Source: a virus. Taken from it: a stretch of 26,558 bases of DNA. Where the stretch lies: positions 1 to 26,558 of IMG/VR virus record IMGVR_UViG_3300034103_000641. The stretch is one strand, 5' to 3'. The translations under genes and the position numbers were made by a program. Positions 4,993-23,651 of this stretch are shown piece by piece (within the stretch, counting starts at the first letter, position 1; each line of letters begins with the position of its first letter). The notes beneath the pieces were generated by a model. It was not told where the DNA came from. It saw only the letters and a program-made list of their open reading frames with translations, and searched no databases.

Positions 4993-5072
4993 TACGCAGT
5001 TGCTTTAGTGGTTGGTTGGTTTATGATGTGCGAGCCGCATGATTTCGAGCGGCAAAATGTAAGTGCTTTCAT
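4992..5072 (-). CDS. 26-residue Cys-containing micro-protein
   Basis: A very short gene with coupled ends on both sides. Its ATG (5072-5070) overlaps the TGA of the methyltransferase gene (5071-5069) as ATGA, and its TAA (4994-4992) overlaps the portal ATG (4992-4990) as TAATG. The peptide begins MKALTFCRSKSCGSH, with C7, C12 and H15 as possible metal or disulfide residues, and ends in a Thr/Ala-rich tail. No family is recognised. The perfect fit between two stop/start overlaps is the main evidence for translation. An alternative is that the stretch is simply an intergenic spacer of 76 bases. Confidence 0.6.
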   Translation of the reverse strand: MKALTFCRSKSCGSHIINQPTTKATA

Positions 5073-5635
5073 GGTTTCTGAATTAGCGAAAGGCCACGAC
5101 CCTCGGATGTGTTTAACGTAATCACATTGTAGTTATAATGCGCTGCGTACTCCATCAGCTTCTTAACATCAGCAATATGAATCGTGTCATGGTAGGCAAC
5201 GATGCCACCATTGGCAAGCACGCGCTCAACCTCTTTGAACTCGGGCAATATGTTATCCCAGCTGTGGTCTCCATCGACAAAGATAAAGTCAAAGTGATTT
5301 GCCGGATAGCCTTTCAGCAATGTTATGGATTCGCCAAGGATAAACTCGACATCTGTTCCGAATGACTTGAGGTTATACTTCAGATAGTTGTTGATATCGA
5401 TGCCAGTGTACTTGCCACCGTATGGCAGGGCTTCAATCATCTTGACGGCTGTCTCCCCTTCGAACACGCCAATCTCGAGCACGTTCGCTGAATTGTTCAT
5501 CTTGATAAGTGAGCCAATGAACTGACATACATCGGGCTCGCTGTTCCATCCGTGGCGCGCCACTTCGTTGAATGTGGCAGTTGTTACAATCTTCTTTGGT
5601 CTGCCTCTCTTTGGCTTATCGCTTAGGGTCTGCAT
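5069..5635 (-). CDS. Class I SAM-dependent methyltransferase
   Basis: A 188-residue protein when started at ATG 5635. Upstream in-frame codons read through the end of the neighbour in another frame and are not used. Residues 5-16 are basic (KPKRGRPKK, AT-hook-like). The Rossmann signature follows: VLEIGVFEGET at 52-62 (SAM-binding motif I), D80 at the end of the second strand (GIDI), FIFVDGDHSW at 117-126, and GGIVAYHD at 143-150. The DGDHSW motif is typical of the Methyltransf_24 group, which includes sugar and small-molecule methylases. It overlaps the glycosyltransferase by 20 bases, so the pair is probably cotranslated. A role in modifying a glycan made by that partner is likely but unproven. 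The substrate cannot be read from the sequence. Confidence 0.85.
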   Translation of the reverse strand: MQTLSDKPKRGRPKKIVTTATFNEVARHGWNSEPDVCQFIGSLIKMNNSANVLEIGVFEGETAVKMIEALPYGGKYTGIDINNYLKYNLKSFGTDVEFILGESITLLKGYPANHFDFIFVDGDHSWDNILPEFKEVERVLANGGIVAYHDTIHIADVKKLMEYAAHYNYNVITLNTSEGRGLSLIQKP

Positions 5636-6536
5636 GCTTATGGTCTGTAATTCGGTGAATGAAGTATTTGTGCTGGATGCCGTCCTGTTGCATCCATGCT
5701 TTGAGCTTTCGGTCGAGCCATTCGATGTAAAAGGTCGGTGTGAATCCTTTGCCACCATAGTAGCTCATCAGGTAGAATCGTTCCTCGATTTGCGCATAGC
5801 TGAATTCTCGATTCATCTGAAAGCAGATAGCATCAATTTCATACGGCTTGAAATTATTCTTGCCGAATGACACATTGAAGTAAAGCTCATCGGGTTGCCC
5901 GCCGCCCCACTTCATCCGGAGCTTGTTAATCGGCATCGGATTGTTGAGGTAAAGGTCGGCAGCTGTGCGGTAAATCGCTTCAGCCTCTGGACACTTCTCA
6001 ATGAACTGGATGCTGCTGTTTATCGCATAAATCTTGTCGGCTTTCGTCAATCCAAAGTGCTGCCATAATTGGTCAGCCCATGCCCATTGCATCTCCTTGA
6101 AATCGCGGCCTTGGTCGATGGTATGCTCACCAACTACGCGGGTTGCATACTTAGCATCGTTCGCAATTAGCTGGTCGATGAGTGGCTGCAAGTCCTTCAG
6201 ACACACAGCATCGACATCGAGGTATAGGTTGTAATCGAACGGCAAGTAATCGTAAAGCAAAACCTTCGCCTTGCCGGGGTCAAGTTTCTTATTCGTGTAG
6301 ATGTGCTGCTCGGGCAGGTCAACATACACATCGATTTGGTTTGTCAAGTCATGGCAATGGTACAGTGCCCTGCCCTTAGAATCGCTGATTAGCGCAATCT
6401 GCAAATCCTTGTTGAATCGCTTAATCGAATACGCTAAGTTGTAAGCAGCCCAATAGTATTGAGGCTTACCAAAAGCAACAAGCACCACCCCGCTCGAGGT
6501 AGGCTTGCCGCTTTGATTTGTGGTTTGAATATCCAT
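5616..6536 (-). CDS. Glycosyltransferase with DxD motif
   Basis: A 306-residue protein with a nucleotide-sugar transferase fold. A hydrophobic strand GVVLVAFG (16-23) is followed by KRFNKDLQIALISD, and the metal-binding DVD at 107-109 in YLDVDAVCL. This layout is seen in GT-A enzymes related to GT8-type transferases. Further conserved-looking features are GRDFKEMQWAWADQLW near 143-158 and a GGGQPDELYFN loop near 212-222. The gene lies in the structural operon between tail genes and the portal, and overlaps a methyltransferase by 20 bases. Possible roles are glycosylating virion proteins, or altering host surface sugars. No signal peptide or membrane segment is visible, so a cytoplasmic enzyme is likely. 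Confidence 0.8.
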   Translation of the reverse strand: MDIQTTNQSGKPTSSGVVLVAFGKPQYYWAAYNLAYSIKRFNKDLQIALISDSKGRALYHCHDLTNQIDVYVDLPEQHIYTNKKLDPGKAKVLLYDYLPFDYNLYLDVDAVCLKDLQPLIDQLIANDAKYATRVVGEHTIDQGRDFKEMQWAWADQLWQHFGLTKADKIYAINSSIQFIEKCPEAEAIYRTAADLYLNNPMPINKLRMKWGGGQPDELYFNVSFGKNNFKPYEIDAICFQMNREFSYAQIEERFYLMSYYGGKGFTPTFYIEWLDRKLKAWMQQDGIQHKYFIHRITDHKHADPKR

Positions 6537-16256: not shown

Positions 16257-16381
16257 TAATCCTCCTCATCATTCGGGTCGGGCATGCAGTCGATAACATG
16301 GCGAAGCACCAGCACCAGGCAGTATGCAAGCCCAACCATGAACAGGGTGAACAGCACTCCGATGCTAATCGATTTAAGCAT
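16256..16381 (-). CDS. 41-residue single-span membrane peptide
   Basis: A short gene whose ATG (16381-16379) lies 8 bases inside the DUF5681 gene and whose TAA (16258-16256) overlaps the terminase ATG as TAATG. The peptide begins MLKSISIGVLFTLFMVGLAY, has one hydrophobic span of about 20 residues (6-26), then RHVIDC and a strongly acidic tail (DPNDEED). The topology is probably N-in with the acidic end outside, or reversed. A holin-like or membrane-anchoring role is conceivable, but it is too short for confident naming. An upstream ATG at 16386 adds two residues and is possible. Confidence 0.6.
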   Translation of the reverse strand: MLKSISIGVLFTLFMVGLAYCLVLVLRHVIDCMPDPNDEED

Positions 16382-16685
16382 TGCCATCCTCTTTCGTCTT
16401 GATGATTACCAACGGCTCGGTAGTCTTGAGCGTTGTTTCATTGGTCTGCTTCGGCTTGCCGTAGCCTCGGTCGAGAAGCATCTCAGCTGCCTTTATATCG
16501 CCACGTAATGCCTTGGCCTCAATCGCCTTAAGGATGCGCTCCGCTGTGCTCAGTCCGTTCTTCTCATCCCCCAAGATGTCAGCCATTAGCTTGCTGAGTT
16601 CTGGCAGCTTACGCGGTCTCCCATTAGGGTTGCCTGTCTGCCCTTTCTTGAACTTATGCGGCTCTATATTTTCCGGCTTTGGCAT
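16374..16685 (-). CDS. DUF5681 protein, possible small terminase subunit
   Basis: A 103-residue protein with the DUF5681 signature FKKGQTGNPNGRPRK at 12-26, a basic Gly/Asn/Pro turn that is common in phage and mobile-element proteins next to terminase. It is followed by helices (LSKLMADILGD, TAERILKAIEAKALRGD, AAEMLLDRGYGKPKQ). The helical body after a basic arm fits a DNA-binding small terminase, and the gene lies just upstream of the large terminase with only the membrane peptide between them. DUF5681 function is not established in general. The small-terminase role is an inference from position. Confidence 0.75.
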   Translation of the reverse strand: MPKPENIEPHKFKKGQTGNPNGRPRKLPELSKLMADILGDEKNGLSTAERILKAIEAKALRGDIKAAEMLLDRGYGKPKQTNETTLKTTEPLVIIKTKEDGNA

Positions 16686-16702
16686 CGCTGTTTTATCGTT
16701 GT

Positions 16703-16843
16703 TTACCTTCTACGTGCTTTTCGATACTTCTCAGCCTCTGCCAGTGCGATTGCCTGTGCTTGCTGCGGTGGATATCCCTCGCCAATTAGCTTGCGGATGT
16801 TCATCGAAATGACCTCTTGGCTGTCTCCTTGGAATAGTGGCAT
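16703..16843 (-). CDS. 46-residue small basic phage protein
   Basis: A short gene between the DUF5681 gene and the 16847-17230 gene. ATG 16843 is followed by MPLFQGDSQEVISMNIRKL, then IGEGYPPQQAQAIALAEAEK, and a basic end YRKARRR. The G-E-G-Y-P-x-x-Q-A-x-A-I-A-L pattern with a Lys/Arg tail recurs in small proteins of many phages, which makes the translation credible. The function is unknown to me. It ends with TAA at 16705-16703, and 17 bases separate it from the DUF5681 start. Confidence 0.7.
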   Translation of the reverse strand: MPLFQGDSQEVISMNIRKLIGEGYPPQQAQAIALAEAEKYRKARRR

Positions 16844-16846
16844 AAT

Positions 16847-17230
16847 TTACAAATTTACTAAATTTTCGTACATCTTGCCCTCCTCAGTGATGTTGATGCT
16901 GAAGCCTCGGTCAACAATCTCTTCGTATTGCGATTGGTAGATGAATAAGTCATGCAGGCCACCATCGATGAAAGCCTTTGCCGTGAAGCCCTCAATGCCG
17001 CTTTTGTCAGAGGTTGGCAATAGGATGCCGAGCTTGTACTCAACATCGCGCTCCTTGCTTAAAACAAGTTTGTTGATCTTGCTGAACTTGCGAACATCTT
17101 CAATGGTAATGCCAACTGCGATGTCATACTCAAGTGCCGGATGCGTTAAGTAACCAAAGTAACAATGGTCGCGCATGTACTCAGAGTCGACAAACATGCC
17201 GGCTCTGAGTCTCGTGGTTTGGTTAGTCAT
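16847..17230 (-). CDS. Hypothetical protein, packaging module
   Basis: A 127-residue protein of unknown family. It starts MTNQTTRLRAGMFVDSEYMR, has YFGYLTHPALEYDIAVGIT, then a basic region (KFSKINKLVLSKERD), LGILLPTSDKSGIEG, and a C-terminal alpha/beta part (GLHDLFIYQSQYEEIVDRG, ending YENLVNL). The mixed strands suggest a compact alpha/beta domain. The gene overlaps its upstream neighbour by 8 bases and is one of several small genes between the promoter at 17643 and the terminase. No function is inferred. Confidence 0.6.
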   Translation of the reverse strand: MTNQTTRLRAGMFVDSEYMRDHCYFGYLTHPALEYDIAVGITIEDVRKFSKINKLVLSKERDVEYKLGILLPTSDKSGIEGFTAKAFIDGGLHDLFIYQSQYEEIVDRGFSINITEEGKMYENLVNL

Positions 17231-17673: not shown

Positions 17674-17888
17674 TTAATGTTATTCTTGTGCAGAAGCCTC
17701 AGCCAGTTCAATGCCTTAATCGTGTAGGTGCGATGCACTGATGTGCCATGCGCAGCTGTTGTCAGATATTTCGCAAGTGATTGGTGCGCCTGTTTCGTTG
17801 AGGTATAAGTTAGCGGACCATCCACAAGCGTGCATTCCTCTGGAAGCATCTCGGTCATGTAGTGAATTATCTTGTCGTACTTAGTCAT
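17652..17888 (-). CDS. Hypothetical protein upstream of the structural operon
   Basis: A 78-residue protein: MTKYDKIIHYMTEMLPEECT, then LVDGPLTYTSTKQAHQSLAK, and a C-terminal helical part TVHRTYTIKALNWLRLLHK-like with Asn-rich end. (The actual residues are SVHRTYTIKALNWLRLLHK.) It is the last gene of the replication-side transcript, overlapping the VRR-NUC gene by 8 bases, and its 3-prime end contains the promoter at 17643-17673. No domain is recognised. Confidence 0.6.
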   Translation of the reverse strand: MTKYDKIIHYMTEMLPEECTLVDGPLTYTSTKQAHQSLAKYLTTAAHGTSVHRTYTIKALNWLRLLHKNNINLQNRNK

Positions 17889-18207
17889 GGTTTATGATGT
17901 TTAAGAATTCTTCTTCATTGCGCACTATGTGGTACTCATGGCCGAGTGATCGGCAAATCTTTTCAAATCGCTTTTGCTCTTCCGACTGCTTGCCGGTGTC
18001 TGTCTTCCATTCAATCCAGCATGTCCGACCTTCCGGCTTCAGGTAGCACATATCGGCAACGCCAGGCACAACACCCATGGCTTTGTTCATTGCACCCTTG
18101 ATGCCGTTCATGCTGTTGTTATTGATGGCAAATACTCTTCCACGCAAGTCGGGGCGGGCGTTCCATAGGTTTGTGAAGGCTTTTGATTGGGCTTTTACTT
18201 CGCTCAT
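17881..18207 (-). CDS. VRR-NUC domain nuclease
   Basis: A 108-residue protein with the VRR-NUC pattern. GVVPGVADM at 45-53 carries D52, CWIEWKTDTGKQSEEQ at 63-78 carries the catalytic E66 and K68 (the ExK motif), and Q74/Q78 fall in the usual conserved helix. RSLGHEYHIVRNEEEFL follows at the C-terminus. Family members are structure-specific or Holliday-junction-type nucleases, and phages use them in replication or recombination. It lies directly after the iteron-like region and downstream of the primase gene. Length is normal for a stand-alone phage version. Its ATG is followed upstream by a perfect 16-base palindrome, so regulation by a repressor is possible. Confidence 0.85.
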   Translation of the reverse strand: MSEVKAQSKAFTNLWNARPDLRGRVFAINNNSMNGIKGAMNKAMGVVPGVADMCYLKPEGRTCWIEWKTDTGKQSEEQKRFEKICRSLGHEYHIVRNEEEFLNIINHD

Positions 18208-18221
18208 GGACAGGACAGCTT

Positions 18222-18237
18222 ACAACCTTGAGGTTGT
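18222..18237. repeat. 16-base palindrome upstream of the VRR-NUC gene
   Basis: ACAACCT TG AGGTTGT has perfect 7-base arms around a two-base centre. It lies 15 bases upstream of the VRR-NUC ATG and runs into the first GTTGTCC copy at 18233-18239. It could be an operator for a dimeric repressor or part of the origin-like repeat system. Confidence 0.55.
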
Positions 18238-18333
18238 CCAACGATTAACAAAAAATCTCTTGAATCCCAAAGCTGTCAAGTGTTTCAGCGGTTTGGACAA
18301 CTTAGTGCCAAAAAAAGGCGTTTTACTATAACA

Positions 18334-18376
18334 TGTGTGTGTGTGTGTGTGCATGTGTGTGTGTATATATATATAT
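18334..18376. repeat. (TG)n and (TA)n simple repeat tract
   Basis: (TG)9 at 18334-18351, (TG)5 at 18354-18363, then a 13-base TA run at 18364-18376. Alternating purine-pyrimidine runs can melt or adopt Z-DNA. The tract sits between the iteron-like repeats and could be an unwinding element, or it may be a slippage-prone simple repeat with no role. Confidence 0.85.
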
Positions 18377-18387
18377 TGTTAAGGTAT

Positions 18388-18463
18388 AAAAGTAAGTTGT
18401 AAGTTGTCCATATTGGCTGAAAGATTTGTAAAATATGGGTGTTCAAGCGGACAACTTACTTTT
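18388..18463. repeat. 13-base inverted repeat flanking a 50-base spacer
   Basis: AAAAGTAAGTTGT (18388-18400) is perfectly inverted as ACAACTTACTTTT (18451-18463). The arms extend the iteron-like units at 18394-18409 and 18449-18457. The 50-base spacer holds no other clear element. Confidence 0.8.
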
Positions 18464-18487
18464 GAGCAAGTTGTCCAAGTTGTCCAG

Positions 18488-20611
18488 TTAGATGAGATTT
18501 TTGCCCACATAGTACATTGTAACCTTTGAATTGCCTTTAGTCTTGCGGTCCTTTTGATATCCGAGTGCAGACAACAGTGAACCGATACGCTGCGTGTTGA
18601 GGTAATTAAACTTCGTCTCCAGCATTAGGAATTGCTGAATGTCGGTCAATGACATCCACTCGCCATAATTCGATGTGCTTCCAGGTGAGAGCTTCTTGTA
18701 GATTAGGTCCTCTTCAGGAGTCGAATGCTTGAATGCGCTGGTTGATTCGTTGAGCTCTTCGATATCTTGGCGCAATACTGTGTAATCCCAGCCGTTGCGA
18801 TACATGGCATAAATCTCACGCCATAGTGCAACCTTATCGCACTTGTTGTACTCAGCTTGGTCAATCCCAAGTATGTGGATCGGAATCTGCCTGCGGTTGC
18901 CAGTTGGATCGTTGAGTATCTGCGTTTCGTTCGATGTACCGCAGAACACTGCAAGTCTACGAAGGTCGAGCGACACGCGGCCATAGGGTTCGCGCACGTT
19001 GATGAACTCCTTCGATGTTAATTCCTTGAGTCGCTTCTCTTCCTTCTTAGACTTACCACCATACTCGTCATCGAGTATTATTAGCTTCAGGCACATGAGA
19101 ATTTCGTCATCCTTCCCAGCATCCATCTTCGACTCAGCGAATAGGTACCTGAGCTGCTTGGGTAGCAAGTAGCGGAACCAATGTGTTTTTCCTGTGCCTT
19201 GCTTCTCGCCTGAGAATATGAGCACCAATGGCGAGTGATTGCCATATGCAGACGCTACCACTGAGACCAGCCACTTGCAGATCCACTTGTCTGCATTTGG
19301 TGTGTCAGTGATTACGCTGTTAAGTAAGTGTGTAAGGTTAGGGCATTCGTCCTCGGTGTGCAGTTCATCTTCAAAGAACTCATGCAAAGGGTTGTATGAG
19401 TCGATGCGATTGGAGAAAATAATGGAAGTAACCAGGTCTTTTGTGGACTCTTTGAACACGGCTTTGCAATCGAGAAAAATCGAGTTAATGTCACTGTCAT
19501 CGATGGCCCTTCCGTTGAGTTCAATCTTGCGCGTAACTACGTTTTTTCTTAGGTCGAAAGTTCGGATAAATGCCGCAATGTCAGCGCTTACGTTCTCCGA
19601 TTTGAATTTAATATCCTTTGCTACTATCTCATTGACAACTTTCGTGCTTTCTTCCGGGCTGATGCCTGCCACTTCGAGGCTGCGCACGATGGCTTCAGGC
19701 GAAAGTCCAGCGGCACGTTGCGAGCTCGCAGCGCGGAGAATCTCCTTGGTCTGTTCGGAGTAGGCTTGTATGCCGTTTTGCTTGGCGTGGTAGTATATGG
19801 TTGCGATTGTGGACCGCTTGCCCTTGCTCTCGCTGTGGTTCTTCAGGCATGCAGTGTACTGGGCATTGCAGTCATCCGAGTTGTACTTTGAAGAGTGCGA
19901 TGACAGCGTGTGAAAGTAGTCGCGACCACCTTCGCCGAATTCGGACACCAGTGCGTATGCGATTTGAATCCACTCGGAGTAATCTTCGCAGAGGTTAAGT
20001 CCTTTGCGATCCATCGCGGCAATCATTGCATCGAAGTCGGTTTTAACTACCGCGACCTTTGCGAGCTTGCGCTCCTTCGGTTTGGCGAGGTACTTCTTAA
20101 ACATGATAGCCTTGGTGTTGATGTGAATCCAAGGGTCATAAGAGATGAAGCGAGCACGCGATACGTTCTTTCCGGACTGGTCAACGATGAGCTGGTATGT
20201 GTGGTAGAGATAGGATGCGATGCCATTAAACGCATCAGCGTGGCGTGTGCCATCGATTTTGACTATCAGGCATAGTCCATGCCCACTGATGGAAGTAAAC
20301 GCAGCATACACATAGCTATCGCCCTGCACGAGCTTCTTAGTATCTTCAGGATTGTCGATGTTGTCGATGTCGATGGCAATGAATCCAGAGTGCGCTCGGA
20401 TGGCATCGTCCTTTCGGGCCGAGAATGATCCGCTGATGGTGACAAGCGGTGCGGATTTCTTGAGCTTGTCACGTTCGGCCTTGTCAGGTGTTGACCTAAC
20501 TTGCAAGACTATGTCCTGCCATTTGCCGGTTCTGACTCCTTCCAAAAAGGAGCTGAGTTCGATGTCAATGTCTTGATTGTCATAGATGTTTTTGTATTGT
20601 GAGATGAGCAT
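18488..20611 (-). CDS. Primase (BT4734-like) fused to VirE-type ATPase
   Basis: A 707-residue replication protein. The N-terminal domain (about 20-180) fits BT4734-like primase: AIDIDNIDN at 79-87 holds the acidic residues, and SGHGLC at 109-114 precedes a strand. Residues about 190-285 match a PriCT_2-like module (CEDYSEWIQIAYALVSEFG, TIYYHAKQNG). The C-terminal part from about 435 is a VirE-type P-loop ATPase: Walker A GEKQGTGKT at 468-476, Walker B LIILDDE at 510-516, then KELTSKEFINVREPYGR and FCGTSNETQILNDPTGNRR near 556-574, as in SF3-like helicases. This domain union is typical of Bacteroidota phages and elements, and it probably primes and unwinds at the phage origin. It ends 3 bases from the repeat cluster. 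The upstream helicase gene overlaps its start by 103 bases. Confidence 0.9.
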   Translation of the reverse strand: MLISQYKNIYDNQDIDIELSSFLEGVRTGKWQDIVLQVRSTPDKAERDKLKKSAPLVTISGSFSARKDDAIRAHSGFIAIDIDNIDNPEDTKKLVQGDSYVYAAFTSISGHGLCLIVKIDGTRHADAFNGIASYLYHTYQLIVDQSGKNVSRARFISYDPWIHINTKAIMFKKYLAKPKERKLAKVAVVKTDFDAMIAAMDRKGLNLCEDYSEWIQIAYALVSEFGEGGRDYFHTLSSHSSKYNSDDCNAQYTACLKNHSESKGKRSTIATIYYHAKQNGIQAYSEQTKEILRAASSQRAAGLSPEAIVRSLEVAGISPEESTKVVNEIVAKDIKFKSENVSADIAAFIRTFDLRKNVVTRKIELNGRAIDDSDINSIFLDCKAVFKESTKDLVTSIIFSNRIDSYNPLHEFFEDELHTEDECPNLTHLLNSVITDTPNADKWICKWLVSVVASAYGNHSPLVLIFSGEKQGTGKTHWFRYLLPKQLRYLFAESKMDAGKDDEILMCLKLIILDDEYGGKSKKEEKRLKELTSKEFINVREPYGRVSLDLRRLAVFCGTSNETQILNDPTGNRRQIPIHILGIDQAEYNKCDKVALWREIYAMYRNGWDYTVLRQDIEELNESTSAFKHSTPEEDLIYKKLSPGSTSNYGEWMSLTDIQQFLMLETKFNYLNTQRIGSLLSALGYQKDRKTKGNSKVTMYYVGKNLI

Positions 20612-22247: not shown

Positions 22248-22489
22248 GATTCGTAGTTTTGGTTGTAGTATTGTTCGGATTCTGTTTGAAAAAAATCTTC
22301 GTCTTTAAACCAATATTCTGATGATAATGGTAATATGTAAGCGTTTTTTATCTGCTCCTTCTCCATTGCTTTTGCTTGCTCAACTAATTCTATGCTAATG
22401 TATGTTTGTCCAAATGCTTTTTGATATTCTTCGGAATGGATATATTGGACCAACCACTCAACTGCTGTCTGCTTTTTCATATTGCTCAA
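22244..22489 (-). CDS. Small acidic TAVEWL-type protein
   Basis: An 81-residue protein with MKKQTAVEWLVQYI at residues 4-17, a central ISIELVEQAKAMEKEQIKNAY stretch (the first 20 of it being IELVEQAKAMEKEQIKNAY), and a Tyr/Gln/Glu-rich acidic end. The same TAVEWL, then helix with KEME-like residues, appears in the 24469-24684 gene, so the two are paralogs. Such TAVEWL proteins are common in phages of Bacteroidota but lack a known function. The start may be M4 (22480), matching the motif. It lies inside the 3-prime end of the Dcm gene (32-base overlap) and ends with an ATGA overlap. Confidence 0.65.
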   Translation of the reverse strand: MSNMKKQTAVEWLVQYIHSEEYQKAFGQTYISIELVEQAKAMEKEQIKNAYILPLSSEYWFKDEDFFQTESEQYYNQNYES

Positions 22490-23651
22490 TAGCTTTGAAA
22501 ATTTGGTGAACTACTTGCGGAACTATGGCGTTTCCTCCGGCTTTTATGGATTCGTTTCGCCATTTAGAAAAGGTAATTCCGTCCAGTCCGGAGGAAATCC
22601 CATCATCTCCAGTACAAATTGGGGATTGAGTTGGGAAGTTGTGCCAGTTTCCAATCTCGCCCGCTTCGTTAGTGAATCTTGATTTTCTAATCCTGTAACC
22701 TTGTCCCCGCAATCCGAAGCCATTGGAGTCGGTAGCATTGAATTTACTTTTTGACCCAATGAATATCCCCTCGTTACTCCTATGCTCGGAGCATCTTTTC
22801 CGTTTCCTATATTGTCCTTGTAATCTCTTTGATTCGGTGTCGGCAACATCCCCATTGCCATTGCTCTTGTTAGTGTCACCGAGTGCATTGACCCTTCCTT
22901 CACTTGGCTGCTCTTCATCGTTGCTGTTGCGTTCGTTGAGTCCATTGCGGTTGGGGTGTGGAGTAGGCCGTTCATCGCTAAGTCCTTCAATGGTGCGCTT
23001 CCGTTGTGTCCTTGATTGCTTATTATTCTGCCCGATTGAGTTATTTGCCGTGGTGGATTGGTCATTGAGTCCATGGCTTGTGGAGTTGGCAGCATCCCTA
23101 GTATTAATTTTGCTTGTAGACAAGTTCCTCCTTGTTTGAATTGTGTATTCTGTTGATGACTCGTTACAGTAGGCAACAAACCAAACTCTGTCTCTTCGGT
23201 GCGGTGCGTTGACGGCACAAGCTGGAAGTACATACGGTTGAACTTCGTACCCTTCAGCTTCCAGGTCAGCCTGCACCTCGTGGAATACCAGCCCTCCTGA
23301 CCAATTAACAAGGCCGAGAACGTTTTCGCCCACGACCCAACGCGGCTGAATTTCTCGAATCGCTCTAAGCATCTCCGGCCAGAGGTGTCGCTCATCTTCT
23401 TTTCCAAGTCGCTTTCCGGCCATTGAGTATGGCTGGCAGGGAAATCCCCCTGTGAGGATGTCAATTCTGCCTCTGTGAATAGTGAAATCTGTTTTGGTAA
23501 TGTCTTCATAACTGATTGCATTTGGAAAGTGATATTTTAATACTTTTTGCCCGAATGAATTCCACTCGCAGTGGAATATGTTCTCCCAACCCATCCACTC
23601 AGCGGCTAAATCAAAGCCGCCAATTCCGCTAAATAGTGATCCGTGTGTCAT
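22458..23651 (-). CDS. C5-cytosine DNA methyltransferase (Dcm-like)
   Basis: A 397-residue protein that transfers a methyl group to cytosine in DNA. Motif I FSGIGGFDLA (7-16), catalytic PC at 71-72 in GGFPCQPYSMAG, ENV at 109-111 (motif VI), HRRDRVWFV (151-159, motif VIII), and the C-terminal GGNAIVPQVVHQIF at about 372-385 (motif X) are all in order. Residues about 163-345 are the target-recognition region, low in hydrophobic residues and rich in Asn, Ser and Gly, with repeated DSN-x-x-G-L-x-G-Q-like units. A second open frame of 978 bases overlaps most of the gene. The enzyme may protect phage DNA from host restriction. It overlaps the HTH gene upstream by 23 bases. Confidence 0.9.
   Translation of the reverse strand: MTHGSLFSGIGGFDLAAEWMGWENIFHCEWNSFGQKVLKYHFPNAISYEDITKTDFTIHRGRIDILTGGFPCQPYSMAGKRLGKEDERHLWPEMLRAIREIQPRWVVGENVLGLVNWSGGLVFHEVQADLEAEGYEVQPYVLPACAVNAPHRRDRVWFVAYCNESSTEYTIQTRRNLSTSKINTRDAANSTSHGLNDQSTTANNSIGQNNKQSRTQRKRTIEGLSDERPTPHPNRNGLNERNSNDEEQPSEGRVNALGDTNKSNGNGDVADTESKRLQGQYRKRKRCSEHRSNEGIFIGSKSKFNATDSNGFGLRGQGYRIRKSRFTNEAGEIGNWHNFPTQSPICTGDDGISSGLDGITFSKWRNESIKAGGNAIVPQVVHQIFKAIEQYEKADSS

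Follow-up and report, generated by a model that had tools for sequence, protein, structure and literature searches.

Introduction

The SaPI Rep and SCCmec Cch2 proteins carry a C-terminal domain that binds iterons located directly downstream of their own genes (PMC7581432). In the PLE satellites of ICP1, the RepA_N DNA-binding domain varies together with the origin, and the two are exchanged as one cognate unit, as origin-swap experiments have demonstrated (PMC8263062). A few Rep residues together with nearby iterons set the specificity in geminiviruses and other CRESS-DNA viruses, where this compact module passes between viruses by recombination (PMC3187698).

We examined a linear IMG/VR viral record of 26,558 bases (the window), in which the genes lie on the minus strand. 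Judging from sequence comparison, it is highly probable that positions 18213-18485 of the window are a phage replication origin, and that the adjoining primase-helicase is the initiator that binds the iterons by its C-terminal winged helix. The origin is very probably of the SaPI/P4 kind, in which the helicase that acts as initiator recognises iterons lying immediately 3' of its gene. Given the SaPI/SCCmec, PLE and geminivirus parallels, this kind of system is therefore already known. As far as our searches showed, what is new is that such a system is found in these phages, how it is laid out there, how many classes it has and that its residues correspond to bases. Its specificity, which can be read and switches rapidly, is the unusual feature.

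The likeness to SaPI Rep and PriRep comprises a VapE/D5-type helicase (primase-fused in SaPI5), a C-terminal DNA-binding domain and downstream iterons. Here, we found a helicase with a primase part, downstream iterons and two sets of iterons flanking an AT-rich stretch, while the C-terminal winged-helix origin-binding domain is predicted from a structural model. By contrast, the present system belongs to tailed phages that probably infect Bacteroidota; its primase part is of the BT4734 type, its unwinding tract is (CA)n/TA, and it has many specificity classes with a residue-to-base correspondence. The alpha protein of phage P4 is likewise a primase-helicase with a C-terminal winged-helix origin-binding domain, though the layout of the P4 origin differs from the one in these phages. 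RepA_N of the PLE satellites belongs to another protein family and comes in two classes, compared to more than 10 here with single-residue resolution, and the geminivirus/CRESS module relies on a rolling-circle Rep of ssDNA viruses, in contrast to the helicase-primase of a dsDNA phage.

A repeat array between the primase-helicase and VRR-NUC genes

The array occupies a gap of 280 bp (18208-18487) between the stop codon of the primase-helicase gene and the start of the VRR-NUC gene. Its features, in order of position, are:

17881-18207, minus strand: VRR-NUC nuclease, Holliday-junction-resolvase-like; conserved far boundary of the putative origin
18213-18221, minus strand: outer iteron, degenerate variant AAGCTGTCC, just before the VRR-NUC start
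18231-18239, plus strand: outer iteron, variant AGGTTGTCC
18259-18294, plus strand: mirror copy of the accessory box
18295-18303, minus strand: inner iteron AAGTTGTCC, beyond the unwinding element as seen from the primase, in opposite orientation to the copy at 18401-18409
18305-18398, no strand: predicted unwinding element, AT-rich, containing a (TA)n tract as well as (TG)n/(CA)n
18401-18409, plus strand: inner iteron AAGTTGTCC, primase side of the unwinding element
18410-18445, minus strand: accessory box that precedes the inner iteron; its consensus is CCAAGG.TT.CAGCGATTT
18449-18457, minus strand: iteron AAGTTGTCC, inverted
18468-18476, plus strand: iteron AAGTTGTCC, head to tail with the copy at 18477-18485
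18477-18485, plus strand: iteron AAGTTGTCC, primase-proximal

The heptamer GTTGTCC was present seven times in the window, and six of these copies fell within 18233-18485, five of them as AAGTTGTCC and one as AGGTTGTCC, in agreement with the count in the initial annotation. The expected number in 280 bp was 0.029 (the earlier estimate was about 0.03), and the Poisson probability of at least six copies is about 7e-13, before correction for the choice of motif. A seventh iteron copy, AAGCTGTCC (18213-18221), was absent from the initial list and corresponds to a conserved iteron position in the relatives. The 13-base inverted repeat that had been proposed (18388-18400 and 18451-18463) proved exact. 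The proposed 16-base palindrome at 18222-18237 does have 7-bp arms, but it is centred on TG and belongs to a facing pair of iterons. The proposed (TG)n/(TA)n tract, thought able to melt, is indeed present, and of all 40-bp stretches in the window the one with the lowest stability (18364-18403) lies within the repeat region.

The accessory box was weakly conserved, independently of the iteron class, and was found on both sides in the long-type origins. The mirror-image boxes of the window (18259-18294 and 18410-18445) flank the inner iterons, and might provide a further site for binding or form a cruciform. No DnaA box (TTWTNCACA), a mark of Rep_3/RepA-type iteron plasmid origins, was found anywhere in the window.

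The primase-helicase and its predicted winged-helix domain

The features of the protein that adjoins the array are as follows:

18488-20611, minus strand: primase-helicase, putative initiator, 707 aa, with BT4734-like N-terminal part, PriCT-2, VapE-like helicase and C-terminal winged helix
18491-18730, minus strand: codons for residues ~628-707, which an AlphaFold model predicts to form the C-terminal winged helix, the putative origin-binding domain
18518-18592, minus strand: putative specificity residues 674 and 678 (recognition helix), and 686/687, 691, 693, 695, 696 and 698 (wing)

Three Pfam families were assigned to the primase-helicase above the cut-off: PF08800, PF08707 and PF05272 (E 1.6e-28). 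The best PDB match of the full-length model by Foldseek was 7pds, PriRep1 with dsDNA (E 1.2e-6), followed by the ASFV PrimPol and the poxvirus D5/E5; 7ola was also matched. A phmmer search of the full protein against PDB sequences recovered 7pds alone.

The AlphaFold model of residues 580-707 (128 aa) contains a winged helix with pLDDT values of 85-93 (~90) in the domain, and places residues 674 and 678 on the recognition helix and residues 686-698 on the wing hairpin. Its best structural matches were of the RFX type, namely RFX5 (8zjr, Z 7.6) and RFX1 (1dp7, Z 6.3), together with the C-terminus of ASFV PrimPol (Z 7.0). The RFX proteins differ from the phage protein in being eukaryotic transcription factors. 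RFX1 recognises DNA through its wing, which agrees with the position in the wing of specificity residues proposed here. Compared with the origin-binding domain of phage P4 (1ka8), the model gave Z 5.4 over 71 residues, a value typical of many winged helices, and no sequence match was found. The Z values of these C-terminal matches would not prove kinship by themselves, as Z below 8 may reflect a shared arrangement.

The product of the VRR-NUC gene scored just under the cut-off of PF08774 in Pfam, and was assigned to a Holliday junction resolvase/endonuclease PHROG. Among the ten window proteins that were scanned there was no Rep_3 match; the protein that co-varies with the repeats is the primase-helicase and not an initiator of the Rep_3/RepA type that marks iteron plasmid origins.

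Elsewhere in the window, a C-5 cytosine methyltransferase gene (22458-23651) had orthologs in 3 out of the 73 related loci, the replication module being otherwise conserved, and methyltransferase-like and glycosyltransferase-like genes were found amid structural genes at 5069-6536 (translations judged by eye).

Layout and letters of the repeats in related phages

Our primase search of viral contigs recovered 80 relatives, and further queries added more. Among the in-clade relatives with enough downstream sequence (73 mapped loci), the layout 3' of the primase gene was the same with small variations: 2-3 head-to-tail repeats (two in the basic pattern), an inverted repeat, a forward repeat, the TA-rich (CA)n unwinding tract and inverted repeats, often with an extra facing pair (> > < >, tract, < and optionally > <). 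The unwinding tract was found in all 73 loci and stays while the iterons change. Repeat density was 27 per kb inside the region and 0.37 per kb outside. The initial annotation had proposed to examine motif density, GC skew and conservation, and the outcomes favour its origin reading. The exact iteron was confined to the region in near-complete relatives of 35-38 kb and in shorter contigs, and the cumulative GC-skew minimum fell within about 1.6 kb of the site in 5 out of 5 sequences (the window and four relatives). As for conservation, the layout is kept in the relatives, but the letters of the repeats are not.

The letters vary between phages, and all copies within one phage switch as a set. 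Iteron types in the relatives include GGACAACTT, GTTGCCACTT, GTTGCAACTT, GTATCAACTT and GCATCATCTT, as well as GCACCACCTT, GGACCACTT, GGACTACTT, GGACAGGCA and others. The left halves were GGAC, GTTGC, GTATC, GCATC and GCACC, and the right halves include AACTT, AGCTT, CACTT, TACTT, ATCTT, ACCTT, AGGCA and ATGCA.

The 280-nt strand folded more stably than its shuffles (z -6.0), because of the inverted iterons and the mirror boxes, which still leaves room for a structural role. The array could then act as an RNA or a cruciform, with inverted copies pairing and the concerted changes being compensatory, so that stems are kept; the two arms are partly mirror images even beyond the iterons. However, the 2-3 head-to-tail copies have no fixed partner and change along with the inverted ones, the upkeep of stems cannot explain letters that are predicted by primase residues 695-698 (see below), and the repeat region matched no Rfam family. 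We therefore consider such an action very improbable.

The 18-mer AAGTTGTCCAAGTTGTCC had 12 matches in viral contigs, with the primase present in two of them only (L083 and L088). Several of the other matches seem to be chance occurrences within reading frames and not further users. One unrelated 38-kb phage contig (L085) had an inverted GGACAACTTGGAC/AAGTTGTCCAAGTTGTCC cluster between genes (2192-2258), with no such primase on the fetched stretch. The single match in cellular genomes was in a MAG labelled Peregrinibacteria, and is possibly a stray viral contig.

Two distant relatives carried an orthologous HNH-endonuclease-like gene exactly between the origin and the VRR-NUC gene (L002, offsets 280-657; L081, offsets 312-692; counted from the primase stop), and a DNA methyltransferase gene was found between the origin and VRR-NUC in L040 and L031. 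The edge of the origin resembles an insertion hot spot, which might drive cassette exchange. In addition, the 40-kb record IMGVR_UViG_3300008259_000070 (L007 and L028) has two primase-origin modules near its ends with different iteron types; the contig is chimeric, or else the phage has two modules for replication.

We also considered that the array is an operator, through which the primase-helicase or another protein controls transcription of VRR-NUC and the downstream packaging and structural genes, with the origin elsewhere. In favour of this, the start codon of VRR-NUC lies immediately beside the final repeat, and the gap is a long gene-free stretch within a series of genes on a single strand. 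Against this, repeats flank the part of the window with the lowest stability, the repeats are tracked by a helicase-primase, which is not a dedicated regulator, and a methyltransferase or HNH gene can separate the origin from VRR-NUC, the array then keeping its place 3' of the primase gene. An operator is thus very unlikely, and the control region for VRR-NUC that was initially suggested as the other option found no support of its own.

Cultured isolates and host

The closest isolates infect Flavobacteriia, and on this sole basis the phages are probably phages of Bacteroidota. In the Flavobacterium phage Muminvirus mumin6-4 (MN812223.1), the VapE gene is followed on its 3' side by GGTAAC repeats, in an array that is similar but distinct, and 11 out of the 14 GGTAACY copies of the genome were located at 16.3-17.2 kb. 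In this phage, a nuclease gene splits the GGTAAC array inside the probable origin (16302-17202; L228, L479). No clear repeat cluster was found near the primase in Cellulophaga phi46:1 and Nonlabens P12024S, whose primases are 33-35% identical.

Wing residues and iteron letters

We collected orthologs of 22 window genes and, for every family with 40 or more usable orthologs (1,543 variable columns in all), scored how well each variable protein column predicted the iteron letters. Primase residues 696, 691, 693 and 695 ranked as the top four columns for the left half; for the next base, the top three were residues 698, 687 and 686. Residues 695-696 gave the left half in 82/82 phages, and residue 698 gave the next base in 82/82 phages. 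The contingency tables for these 82 phages had zero exceptions and read as follows:

Residues 695-696, left half: S-K, GGAC; S-I or S-V, GTTGC; S-L, GTATC; Q-L, GCATC; Q-K, GCACC
Residue 698, next base: T or M, A; R or L, C; A, T
Residues 674/678, end of the iteron: Q-S, CTT-type; N-Q, GCA; H-T, GGT

The combination 687Q/698R accompanied CACTT in both GGAC and GTTGC backgrounds. On a tree of residues 1-640, the left half, residues 695-696 and both jointly took 21 changes each.

The iteron labels and the code were derived from a discovery set of 74 loci, after which the rules were fixed; four labels (L057, L069, L072, L073) were set by hand, the automatic labeller having failed or been ambiguous. 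All nine in-clade loci outside the discovery set fit the code, several of them being close to discovery loci. The outgroups (L081, L169-L178, L461-L468) have other wing residues and other iteron letters, and the code was applied within the clade.

That all iterons change in concert with specific residues of the primase wing strongly supports the origin reading, and it points to the VirE/VapE primase, one of the binders initially suggested, as the probable reader. A different phage- or host-encoded DNA-binding protein might instead read the repeats, and small HTH genes do occur in the window. Yet the best columns of the other gene families scored below those of the primase wing (0.28 vs 0.68 for the left half, and 0.41 vs 0.91 for the next base). 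The HTH_17 gene had orthologs in only 5 out of the 73 loci, so the HTH protein, which had also been suggested as a binder, cannot be the conserved reader. We regard another binder as extremely unlikely.

Since the wing codons and the first repeats are neighbours, the association had to be tested for linkage, that is, for wing and iterons within about 100 bp recombining together without functional coupling. The wing and the origin do travel as one cassette (see below). Nevertheless, synonymous sites of residues 560-707 scored at most 0.24, compared to 0.68 for residue 696 and 0.62 for residue 691, and one residue was served by different codons within a single iteron class. Moreover, same-class C-termini shared as little as 55% DNA identity (differences at up to 45% of nucleotides), and the right-hand iterons, 150-270 bp away, have identical letters. 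The lack of tracking by synonymous sites and the divergence of same-class C-termini place the association at the amino-acid level, and linkage is therefore not its cause; there is hardly any likelihood left for linkage alone.

Exchange of the wing and origin

Sister phages of different class were mostly 92-97% identical in the DNA of the primase body and VRR-NUC. Between the wing codons and a point shortly before VRR-NUC, the segments that contain iterons were about 40-65% identical, while the unwinding tract keeps about 72-92% identity. The C-termini of L018 and L020 differ in three residues. The primase body nearest to that of the window (L035, 94%) has an origin of 56% identity, while the origin of L002 is 99% identical, and in L025 and L020 the nearest origin likewise belongs to a different primase body. 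As the nearest origin often goes with a different primase body, the comparison indicates that the wing and origin are exchanged, moving between phages as a cassette of about 400 bp.

A wider reading, which we put forward tentatively as possible, is that the phage lineage circulates many mutually exclusive origin specificities, in which wing and helix residues spell the iterons near-deterministically and diversifying selection spreads the ~400-bp cassettes, in the manner of restriction-specificity or mating-type cassettes. The selecting pressure would be replication parasites, competing phages or origin-directed defence; selection for diversity is what we infer from the pattern. An avoidance of equal iteron types within one metagenome was not detected in an underpowered comparison (4 out of 23 pairs alike vs 2.1 expected).

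Proposed mechanism and implications

In the mechanism that we propose, the C-terminal winged-helix domain of the primase-helicase would bind the iterons, with the wing reading GGAC-A and the recognition helix reading the final CTT. With iterons to either side of the TA/(CA)n tract, two helicase rings would assemble in opposite orientation, melt the tract and lead to bidirectional replication, and the primase fused to the helicase would start synthesis. Binding of the primase to the iterons may also autoregulate the operon.

The origins of most environmental phages are unknown, and here the origin, its probable reader and the letters can be inferred from sequence alone. The relatives provide more than 10 natural initiator-origin pairs with near-minimal differences. 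Two questions are now testable: how the wing of a winged helix encodes DNA specificity, and why phages that are about 95% identical use origins that a neighbour's initiator may not recognise. A likely consequence would be that coinfecting phages fall into groups of replicative incompatibility, for which the PLE satellites and geminiviruses offer parallels.
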